From an uncultured Schlesneria sp. (lineage in GTDB: Bacteria > Planctomycetota > Planctomycetia > Planctomycetales > Planctomycetaceae): a stretch of DNA of 64,000 nucleotides. Of this stretch, positions 4,386-55,909 are shown one piece after another. The stretch is from NCBI GenBank assembly GCA_903834925.1, contig CAILLA010000281.1, positions 1 to 64,000 on the forward strand, given 5' to 3'. The position numbers were made by a program, and so were the translations under genes. How positions within the stretch are numbered: position 1 is the first letter of the stretch; each line of letters begins with the position of its first letter. The notes under the pieces were generated by a model. It did no database searches. It was given only the letters and a program-made list of their open reading frames with translations, and had not been told where the DNA came from.

Positions 4386-4814
4386 TTGGCGACGACGTCG
4401 ATTGGAAACCGAAGCCGCATGTCCAATAAATTCACGGCGCGGGCTTCGCCCGCAACCCAATCTGGAGAAGAATTTGAACGACGAAAAACACGAAAAAAGA
4501 ACAGTCGAGGCGAGCCGGGCGACGTAAGTCCCCGGATTCTTTTCTTCAATAGATTCTTCGCGCCCAGCAAAGAAATCAAACGTTAGTAATACCGACTGCA
4601 GAAACGTCGGCAAAGGTCTGATACTTTCGAACTGATGCGGTCAGAATCTTAAAACGTCGCGTGTTGCGACCCTTGTTGACCTCATCACTCATTTAATCCG
4701 TGCAATCGATTTTGATCTACTGATGTGGAAATTGATCTGGTCTGGCGTGCGGTTCGGCGCGCCTTTAGACTTGAGCTGGCTCTTTGCGCTCAAGCATCAG
4801 ACAGGATTTCCTTC
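4386..4814 (+). other. Intergenic region upstream of the LEPR surface protein
   Basis: No convincing gene. It contains a short perfect hairpin at 4439-4453 (GCGGGC, loop TTC, GCCCGC) and a GC-rich stretch near 4505-4540 that resembles dispersed non-coding repeats of planctomycetes (resemblance from memory, not searched). Small open frames here have no family features. Confidence 0.4.
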
Positions 4815-11779: not shown

Positions 11780-11871
11780 TATGAAATTCTCCGGTTGGAC
11801 GAAAGCGGTGTTTTGGATCAATATTTGGATCGAGTTGTAGAACCCCACGCCATTGAATTCAACCTTGCCCC

Positions 11872-11943
11872 CCGGCACAGCCGGTTCATGCGCGTCGAAT
11901 GACGGGTCCGGCACAGCCGGCTTATGCGCGTCACGTGACGGGT
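11872..11943. repeat. Two tandem 36-bp units upstream of dapL
   Basis: Two units, 11872-11907 and 11908-11943, each begin CCGGCACAGCCGG and contain ATGCGCGTC followed by TGACGGGT. They differ at a few positions. The period is a multiple of three, which keeps the frame open upstream of dapL, but nothing suggests it is translated. Confidence 0.8.
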
Positions 11944-12036
11944 TCAGAATAGTCGCACCGTTCACGCGTTGAACGCCCGACCCCAGAACATCCATTGTTA
12001 ACGTCGACGCGCCAGTCAGGTCTGTTCGTTTGTCTT

Positions 12037-12075
12037 CGGGGACACTGCTTTTTTTGCGAAAAAGCAGTGTCCCCG
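12037..12075. repeat. Perfect 17-bp stem hairpin
   Basis: CGGGGACACTGCTTTTT at 12037-12053 pairs with its perfect inverse at 12059-12075 across a 5-base loop. No U-run follows the stem on either strand, so it is not a typical terminator. It sits upstream of dapL and just left of the 10-bp repeat element. Confidence 0.75.
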
Positions 12076-12189
12076 AGGTTTCTCGATTTTCCTATTGACG
12101 AGCGTGTTGTATTGTTGTAGTTTTATGTCGTGGTTTTGTTGTGTTACTAACGGCGGGCGTTTCGTCGTCGTTCATCGCTCCAAATAACT

Positions 12190-12218
12190 CGCTTCTCTTC
12201 GAGGCGCGGTTAAACGAT
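12190..12218. repeat. 29-bp dispersed repeat, copy 1
   Basis: The 29 bases starting CGCTTCTCTTCGAGG are repeated without mismatch, inverted, at 15744-15772. They fall in the part of the 10-bp-array element that is absent from its second copy, so they probably belong to an inserted sequence. Confidence 0.8.
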
Positions 12219-12263
12219 ACGTTTGGACGATGAGTGGGTCCTGACAAAAACGGGGACAAGAAT

Positions 12264-12283
12264 CCCGGGATTAACATCCCGGG
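12264..12283. other. Hairpin A of a covarying pair
   Basis: The stem CCCGGGAT pairs with ATCCCGGG across a TAAC loop. With its flanks (ACAAGAATC before, CTCGC and TTGG after) it is nearly identical to the stretch at 12463-12499; apart from one base in the right flank, they differ only at two stem pairs, both changed on each side so that pairing is kept. Confidence 0.8.
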
Positions 12284-12469
12284 CTCGCTTGGATTATTGG
12301 AAATCACAACCTGACGACGACAATTGATCTTTGAGATCTTGGAATGAAATTTAATCGGGCTGCCCCGGCGTCGACTTGAGGCGCTGCGCGATCCGTGGCG
12401 GTTCGTTGTTTGCCTTGGCGGGCGGAGCGTGGTTGGTAGCGGGCGGCGGTCGGAAAATTCAACAAGAAT

Positions 12470-12489
12470 CCAAGGATTAACATCCTTGG
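12470..12489. other. Hairpin B of a covarying pair
   Basis: The stem CCAAGGAT pairs with ATCCTTGG across the same TAAC loop as hairpin A. The C-G and G-C pairs of A are A-T and A-T here, a double compensatory change. It lies 17 bases before the ATG at 12507 that opens the array frame. Confidence 0.8.
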
Positions 12490-12510
12490 CTCGCCTGGGA
12501 GGAAACATGG

Positions 12511-12610
12511 GATTCGAACTTGATCGAACTCGATCGAACTCGATCGAACTCGATCGAAGTCGAACGAAGTCGAACGAAGTCGAACGAAGTCGAACGAAGT
12601 CGAACGAAGT
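12511..12610. repeat. Ten tandem 10-bp units (TCG-N3-GAA type)
   Basis: Ten uninterrupted 10-bp units, first of the type CGATCGAACT, then CGAACGAAGT repeated five times. Every unit has the same phase. A 45-residue frame (12507-12644) runs through the array and ends in CTATGA. Confidence 0.9.
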
Positions 12611-12690
12611 CGAACACGGCGGAAAAATGGATAAAAGCCTATGAATTATGGGGAATGGTCGAAGTCGGTCGAACTTGATCGAACTTTGAC

Positions 12691-13020
12691 ACCAAATTTC
12701 TCGGAACCATGAATCCAGCAGAATGGAAGAGAAGATTTTGAACAAAAGGAAACGAAGTTAATGAAGTGAAGAGAAAGCAGACACGGAGGATGCCGCCAGA
12801 ACTGTCCGGGAAGCTCGGGGTGGAGGCTTCCTTCCGAATTCCTTTGTTCCCTTCGTTAACTTCTGTTCAATGGTATTTGTATTTCCAGACTTTCTACCCG
12901 TTTCGGCTCGCCGTCCCGATGATAAGGCGACAAAAGATGAAGTTGGCCAACCTCAAACTTTCAAAAAATGCCTATAAAAAAGGAACTTGGCCAACTTTGC
13001 CAACTTGGTCAACTATTTTC
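12691..13020. other. Intergenic repeat mosaic
   Basis: No gene. It holds AACAAAAGGAAACGAAGTTA near 12740 and a partly inverted version near 12840-12868, and TTGGCCAAC near 12945 and again near 12990 followed by TTTGCCAACTTGGTCAAC. These look like decayed dispersed repeats. Confidence 0.5.
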
Positions 13021-13215
13021 GAAGATGCAAATCGAACGAAATCGGCTTTCGGATAGAATTAGAACGGTGAACGATATCGAAGTCGGTTGAAATCTGGTGA
13101 ACTCGCGCGAAGTCTGGTGAACTCGCTCGAACTTGTTTGCGACGAAAATGACGACGAAATCCTATGAAATACGGCAGTTGGTCGAAGTCGCGCGAACTTT
13201 TCAATCAAGTTTCAC
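13021..13215. repeat. Dispersed 10-bp-array element, degraded copy 2
   Basis: From 13061 to 13130 the sequence keeps a strict 10-bp period (units ending in GA: AGTCGGTTGA, AATCTGGTGA, ACTCGCGCGA, AGTCTGGTGA, ACTCGCTCGA). It is followed at 13161 by CCTATGAAATACGG and TGGTCGAAGTCGCGCGAAC, the 3' module of copies 1 and 3. The 5' half is not recognisable. Confidence 0.7.
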
Positions 13216-13365
13216 AGCAGACTTGATCACAGCAAAAATGGCGAAAAGTTTCTTGAATAGAAGTGGTGCGCAAACCTGACATCAGTATGAAGTTGACTGA
13301 CAACCAGGCGTAGCACATCAATCGCTGATGTCGACACTCGTATCAATTAATTTCAAAAGAAATTA

Positions 13366-13470
13366 GCCACAGATCCACACAGATCAAGAGGAATAAATCC
13401 CATGAAAAACACTGGTTTCTGTAAGTTTGTATTTTGCATTTATCCGTGTGGATCTGTGTTCATCTGTGGC
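13366..13470. repeat. Inverted repeat with GCCACAGAT arms
   Basis: GCCACAGATCCACACAGAT at 13366-13384 matches the inverse of 13452-13470 at 17 of 19 positions, about 67 bases apart. Similar 'CACAGAT' repeats are familiar from many bacterial genomes. I see no gene inside. Confidence 0.7.
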
Positions 13471-13736
13471 AAATTCTCTTCGCTTTCGCATTAAGTTCGG
13501 GGAATCGTTGACGGAATTATTCGGTGATGGAAAACGTGGGTAAAGACCAGTGTACGAACATCGGAGAGGCTTGTGGTGCCATTTTGGCAGTTGTGATTCA
13601 GTTCGACTGATGCTGCCGCTCATAAATTTCCGGCATTTTTGACACATGGGACATGGCGCGCCAGTTGCTTTTCATCCTTCCACGCGGTCGATGGACTGCC
13701 TTTCTGTTTCGATGTTGATTGCTTTTGGAGTTCCCC

Positions 13737-53887: not shown

Positions 53888-54200
53888 ATATGGCGCGTGT
53901 TGTGTTCTTGTCTTGGCGGGAATGAAGAATCCGTCTAATGAGTCTCAGGATTAGCATCCCGGACTTACCTGGATTTCGCAAAAAAATAAGAACTGACGAC
54001 GAACTTGATCTTTGAAAAATTGGAACGAATTGAATACGGAACGCTCCTGCAGCCGTCAACAGCAGCGGGCTTGTCCGTGCGGTTTCGTTGTTTGTCTTGA
54101 GGAGGGCGCCGAAACGGCGAGAGAGTCGTTCTGAGAAAGTCTTGAGTAGACAGTTCAGGAAGGGACACCGCCAGGCTCACCAAGGAGCAATGATGGGATT

Positions 54201-54290: not shown

Positions 54291-54443
54291 CACCCCAAAA
54301 AACGTAGAAATGATTGCCAAAACCCTATGAATTACAGGGAATGGTCGAAGTCGCGCGAACTCGCTCGAACTTTTCGATCAGATTTGTTGGCGTGTGACGG
54401 AGCGTGGGGAGTCACGCATCACGAAGATCGTCAACAAGGTTCC

Positions 54444-55262: not shown

Positions 55263-55909
55263 TCGATAAAGCCTCTATCAATGCGAGTTGGAAAATAAAT
55301 TCAGCAGGATTTTTGGCCTGAGAATACGAATTTAGACAGGCCAAGGCGGCAACGATCCATGCCGAAATCACGAGGTTCGGCGAGGGTCACATGCTTGATC
55401 CCACTCGCATGGTGTTGGTAGAGGCATACCGCATACCACGCGTTTCGGCAGAATCTGCGCCTTAAATATATTCGGCCTAATTCTGATCGTTGCTTTGACG
55501 TTGGCGACGCGGTTGATCGGTTTTCTTCAAATCGGATATTGTCATCCGGTATAATCCGCATGGCCGGTTTGTGTGTTGGCGCTGGGTAGAAGTTTTAGGG
55601 GGCATTTTCGAAAAAAAGAGGTGGCTGAACAGGCAGAAAGGATGGGGCTGATGGGACTTATGCGACATATGGGACGAGTGACGCTTGATGGGCAAATTCA
55701 TTTCATGGGTCCCATTTCGTCCCATGCGTCTCAACAGTCCCATTCTTCATTCGCCGCGAACGACCGAAACCGAAACTTTCCCTTCGGAAAAAACGGCCCA
55801 GTGATTGCAAATCGTGTTTGACCAATCAAGCAGCAGTCGATTAATATCAACAGTGGCCGATGCGTCGGTCACCTGCCGGAATTTCCTGCCTGACCCGAAA
55901 GGCCCGCCC
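55263..55909. other. Intergenic region upstream of the DUF1501 gene
   Basis: No gene supported. Near 55641-55740 there are repeated ATGGGAC and inverted TCCCAT words, similar to the repeat inside the 3' end of the NagA-like gene at 9400-9440. The last 100 bases before 55910 belong to an open frame upstream of the real start. Confidence 0.45.

Follow-up and report, generated by a model that had tools for sequence, protein, structure and literature searches.

Two hairpins at 12264-12283 and 12470-12489 of a 64,000-nt stretch from an uncultured Schlesneria sp. (the window) are members of an interspersed palindrome family, AAGAATCC-NN-GGAT-TNAC-ATCC-NN-GGCTCGCCTGG and variants, and probably represent a mobile palindromic DNA repeat of REP/BIME-like type. 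Over many copies, covariation is far stronger at stem pairs of this family than at non-stem pairs, so the fold either matters or is being actively maintained; it is more likely to be DNA than RNA.

Both hairpins lie on the forward strand inside element copy 1 and have an 8-bp stem closed by a TAAC loop: 12264-12271/12276-12283 in hairpin 1 (CCCGGGAT-TAAC-ATCCCGGG) and 12470-12477/12482-12489 in hairpin 2 (CCAAGGAT-TAAC-ATCCTTGG). With conserved flanks the whole units span 12250-12297 and 12456-12503 (57.1 and 67.9 bits, respectively, with covariance model R1, derived from a flank-anchored alignment of 33 copies). Fold z-scores are -3.28 (RNA) and -3.36 (DNA) for hairpin 1, and -1.90 (RNA) and -2.96 (DNA) for hairpin 2. 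As noted in the preliminary description, the 37-mers at 12257-12293 and 12463-12499 differ by two compensating stem pairs (positions 10, 11, 24 and 25), C-G and G-C of hairpin 1 both being A-T in hairpin 2 with the loop unchanged, but two flank bases (33 and 37) also differ, not one. The equivalent hairpin of copy 3 (about 53936-53972, forward strand) does have the partly broken stem ascribed to it, with weaker fold z-scores (-1.47 RNA, -0.98 DNA) than hairpins 1 and 2, and was not reported by R1 at E<=0.001. A third family member in the window, at 4501-4549 on the reverse strand (R1 37.0 bits, E 3e-6), belongs to a bulged subtype, CCGGG-GAC-TTAC-GTC-G-CCCGG, with identical or near-identical copies elsewhere.

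Hairpins 1 and 2 are separated by a conserved core (12298-12455, forward strand; CTGACGACGACAATTGATCTTTGA... to ...GGAAAATTCAA), which is recovered beside hairpins of other copies, and a 10-bp TCGAAC array (12514-12613, forward strand) lies downstream of hairpin 2. The ATG of the array frame is at 12507, indeed 17 bases past the end of hairpin 2. This frame was rejected as a protein: it spans anything from 8 to 72 codons in the different element copies (a few rows of the comparison being chance matches), with no shared end. An outer helix formed by the flanks appears in folds of hairpin 1 and was likewise rejected, with no flank pair at E<0.05 among 96 flank-aligned hairpins.

The genome contains 16 exact occurrences of the core GGATTAACATCC and none of the reversed control, so the family is not a product of chance; a two-mismatch search of the window alone gave no significant excess (7 seen, 4.4 expected, 15/100 shuffles as high). 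A DNA search with 12200-12720 returned 78 matches in the same genome, spread over many contigs, and the covariance model identified at least 115 hairpins at E<=0.01 in its 9.0 Mb, a lower bound since 150 of 3609 first-look candidates were scored. Under stricter filters, family matches were present in 13 of 59 genomes searched: this one, 6 of 14 congeners, five from other genera of the family and one from another family. An exact pattern search of named genomes matched seven stretches, all from uncultured Schlesneria MAGs. The pair of hairpins had been described as a feature of element copy 1; it is present there but not special to it, as other copies carry a hairpin at the same two places with different stems, the two alleles being two of several that mix among copies. 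Family hairpins are also found singly, in inverted and direct pairs (dimers) and in unrelated mosaics. At five loci (L041, L131, L146, L164 and L194) their neighbours on one or both sides are DUF1553- and DUF1501-type genes, as named by reading the sequence. No description of this family was found in open-licence papers on such elements in Planctomycetes.

A covariation test over many copies had been called for in the preliminary description, and its outcome upholds the claim of compensatory change. Pairing is retained in 95.1% of the pair cells of the 33-sequence set, and four of the eight pairs include double changes; these amount to 19 cells, compared with 3.9 +/- 1.6 after shuffling (0/500 as high). 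In a larger set of 172 unique hairpins from this genome and relatives (183 hits, four low-scoring ones dropped and identical rows merged), the top five of 780 column pairs are all stem pairs (207, 170, 158, 83 and 44; best other pair 32). Against a tree-based null, the tree itself being weak with sequences this short, three of eight stem pairs and none of 772 other pairs reached the floor (E<=0.025). As the 172-sequence alignment had been fitted to the fold, a second alignment was made from the flanks only, with unique hairpins from 48-nt hits with recognisable flanks (n=96 from 183 hits in total; 61 49-nt forms, mostly bulged, and odd lengths were excluded). In this ungapped set four stem pairs rank above all 772 non-stem pairs and the best has E<0.001; the next is at 0.068, so that one of eight stem pairs and none of the 772 others passes 0.05. 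One of eight also passes in the part from the same genome (n=58).

Compensating changes of this kind would also arise if there were no selection on the fold, with palindromes maintaining themselves by template switching or gene conversion from arm to arm and spreading by ordinary repeat recombination. Quasipalindrome correction is the mechanism behind this explanation, which agrees with the excess of double changes over one-sided wobbles in the 33-sequence set (19 versus 3 cells). It also agrees with the orthologous hairpins of sister species: of four groups, two keep the stem and two have compensating differences at the same place, in the two best-aligned pairs (L041/L194 and L148/L229, the latter ambiguous, as two hairpins stand there in the relative). 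However, conservation in the T-N-A-C loop and in the unpaired AAGAAT and CTCGCC flanks equals that of the stem, which arm correction leaves unexplained, and some mobility would still be needed for the scattered copies and the empty site described below. We consider it rather unlikely as a full account.

Selection on the folded form, as either RNA or cruciform DNA, had been proposed for these hairpins; the fold is borne out, and the choice between the two now leans towards DNA on the strength of strand-symmetric wobbles, random gene orientation, mobility and frequent association with other repeats. A single RNA strand is expected to tolerate G-U pairs but not A-C. In the flank-aligned set G-T (16) and A-C (15) are about equally frequent among 768 cells, so neither strand is favoured and the strand-specific pairing signal of a structured RNA is not seen. 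Hairpins are co-directional with the upstream gene in 18 of 43 cases and with the downstream gene in 21 of 43, i.e. randomly oriented (43 of 112 hits in the same genome were counted, excluding 24 inside ORFs of >=150 codons, some of them spurious, and the rest for want of a gene call on one side). GTNA, the form taken by TNAC on the other strand, is a stable class of DNA loop. UNAC and UMAC RNA loops are GNRA-like according to an excerpt of the relevant source (PMC12550061). Since TNAC fits the UNAC RNA tetraloop and the GTNA DNA loop alike, the loop does not decide between them.

It is thus distinctly improbable that the hairpin works as a cis-acting or small RNA with a UNAC tetraloop and pairs kept by selection on that RNA, even though TNAC with a free N in 164 of 172 unique hairpins, the compensating stem changes and the position of hairpin 2 shortly before an ATG would all suit such a role. 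In addition to the wobble and orientation counts, no Rfam match was obtained within the window at gathering scores, the frame downstream of hairpin 2 is not conserved and many copies lie within mosaics or genes. Intrinsic terminators or attenuators drifting by compensating changes are hardly credible despite the stable, G+C-rich and intergenic stem and are rejected because the T run is missing (CTCGCC follows the stem); moreover, the 3′ side of genes is not preferred (nearer gene upstream in 20/43) and copies occur inside ORFs.

Lineage-specific presence is seen for the composite as a whole. A 1708-bp block (11868-13575) in the intergenic space between a dapL-like gene and htpG holds both hairpins, two palindrome B units and several arrays, and is absent in three sister species (G001, G002 and G005), in which the same spacer is about 50 bp long between flanks of 86-90% identity. 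Elsewhere in G005 there is a piece carrying both of these hairpin alleles (94% identity over 338 bp). For single hairpins no clean empty site and no target duplication was obtained in three sister genomes; at the site read in detail (L148, near 6945) there is no clean boundary because a different repeat fills the spacer in each species. A dedicated RAYT was not found: family hairpins are near none of 10 Y1_Tnp matches in the same genome or 27 further loci of the genus (R1 gave E 0.35 at best), and a survey reaching up to 1.5 kb from 183 hairpins revealed no transposase-like ORF that recurs. The ORFs that do recur there were discarded as candidates, being the repeats themselves, DUF1501/DUF1553-type neighbours or orthologous loci. 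Three RAYT-like Y1 transposase genes of the genome (L047, L048 and L050) are flanked by their own, different hairpin repeats.

The reading as a REP/BIME-like mobile repeat is supported by high copy number, conserved fold, compensating changes and lineage-specific presence, as well as by the occurrence of single copies, pairs and mosaics and the lack of strand or orientation preference. Counting against it are the lack of a dedicated transposase, of a GTAG or CGTC foot tag and of a clean single-hairpin empty site or target duplication, and the rarity of one-sided wobbles, which purely mutational correction of palindromes would also give. Copying of the unit, probably in trans by an IS200/IS605-type (Y1 HUH) enzyme, may depend on recognition of its hairpin in single-stranded DNA. 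Further spread would be limited to units that retain the TNAC loop (GTNA in the complement) together with an intact stem, so that stem sequence would drift while pairing is kept; arm-to-arm correction during replication may contribute to this. Where units land in genes, in-frame, stop-free copies would persist as additional stretches of protein where loops tolerate them.

Copies of this last kind appear to be present in Schlesneria: it is quite probable that a composite of mobile palindromes, A (the hairpin described here) and B, was spliced in frame into unrelated working genes, among them lpxK and three linkers of Cas4-Cas1, adding ~50-63 residues each time and representing protein-coding palindromes outside Rickettsiales. 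The LpxK is encoded by a 428-codon ORF on contig C270 (L335:1098-2381, forward strand; Pfam E 1.6e-75 in two stretches) and has 76 residues where a solved LpxK has 17, i.e. it is about 59 longer at that loop. The DNA of the insert holds hairpin A between two B units (B-A-B), in frame and stop-free. Cas4-Cas1 is encoded on contig C118, within a type I-G CRISPR-Cas locus (L144; Cas4g/Cas1g, Csb2, Cas7g, Cas8g1, Cas3g and a WYL/WCX-domain regulator). Its 780 residues form four aligned blocks with the 559-residue Cas4/Cas1 fusion of known structure (7mi4), separated by gaps in which query residues 102-165, 313-375 and 519-582 stand against 12, 0 and 4 residues, and each of these contains hairpin A plus palindrome B in frame (e.g. 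KNPGIDIPGSPGQ, ILNPS.DA..PA). In comparisons with Cas4-Cas1 of nine relatives (G113 was uninformative, giving a wrong-frame ORF) mostly the same gaps were seen; G003 and G007 have unrelated extra residues at the third site. The WYL regulator ORF has one in-frame copy. The first 17 kb of this contig (G000, C118, 1-17000) carry at least 11 family hairpins, four of them in frame, in cas4-cas1 and the WYL regulator gene.

Palindrome B is found without A in two ORFs, near the start of a DUF1501-like one (C20) and in an SPFH-like one (C49), both named by reading the sequence and not by profile search. The A/B peptide has 73 matches in the genome, most of them in short frames, so intergenic copies prevail. 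Of the genes concerned, lpxK is a lipid A synthesis gene and Cas4-Cas1 a CRISPR integrase fusion, and both proteins have assayable activity. If the above reading is true, one DNA hairpin family would be both a selfish repeat and a source of new protein segments.

In the window, palindrome B is present as two tandem units at 11872-11943 on the reverse strand (CCCGTC..GACGCGCAT.AACCGGCTGTGCCGG). Its stem, CCGGC-TGT-GCCGG, has compensating versions elsewhere (CCGCC/GGCGG and CCCGC/GCGGG), with 41 distinct units in the loci read. A constant CCTATGAAATACGG-like core is found between arrays at 12634-12675, 13157-13198, 54320-54361 and about 12940-13016; the short unit of these arrays varies between families (TCGAACTTGA, TTGGCCAAC) and is identical on both sides of the core. 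Periodic repeats with inverted halves (CACAGATC...ATCTGTGG, ATGGGAC...GTCCCAT) occur at 13368-13470 and 55640-55760 and in two other loci (L286 and L290), and the CACAGATC...ATCTGTGG kind also fills a spacer in sister species. A further repeat family, at L148:2703-2893, has dozens of copies in G005.

Among known palindromic repeats, REP/BIME elements are described, in excerpts of two papers (PMC3733652, PMC6006769), as palindromes of 20-65 nt with a conserved unpaired foot and high copy number, with stem subfamilies of alternative complementary residues, 1-nt bulges, dimers and mosaics. As far as those excerpts go, the Schlesneria repeat resembles REP/BIME elements with a RAYT (TnpAREP) in its palindrome with unpaired foot, many interspersed copies, bulges and alternative complementary stem residues, and its occurrence in pairs and in mosaics with other repeated motifs is as in BIMEs. 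REP superfamilies, as the same excerpts present them, are defined by GTAG or CGTC tags and a linked transposase (PMC3733652, PMC6006769). The foot here is GAAT or GAGT (CGAG on the other strand), unlike the GTAG/GTGG of GTAG-type REPs, and no RAYT gene flanked by the same hairpin was found at the 10 own and 27 other genus loci mentioned above. CGTC-tagged REPs, including RPE-4 and RPE-6, have an 8-9 bp stem, a 4-5 nt loop, no dedicated transposase and intragenic units in the excerpted account (PMC3733652). On that account they are similar in stem and loop size, in intragenic units and in that no dedicated transposase was found here; the Schlesneria family differs in having neither CGTC tag nor CCA tail, and the likeness is one of description; CGTC-tagged families are predominantly alpha-proteobacterial. 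The present family adds a tag class to palindromic repeats (GAAT foot, TNAC loop, no known transposase) and provides a well-populated natural set of hairpin alleles for testing, apart from RNA function, whether a DNA fold is under selection.

Rickettsia palindromic elements are, in the excerpt drawn on (PMC10969869), palindromic repeats that interrupt unrelated protein genes without breaking the reading frame and are translated as additional segments. The Schlesneria family belongs to another phylum, has another sequence and is likened to them by description; unlike them, most of the copies found are intergenic, the inserts are composites of palindromes A and B, and translation is inferred. 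The shared feature is the presence of hairpin A in frame inside conserved genes: lpxK, cas4-cas1 (three sites) and the WYL regulator. If these copies are translated, the idea drawn from Rickettsia that selfish palindromes make protein segments would extend to another phylum.
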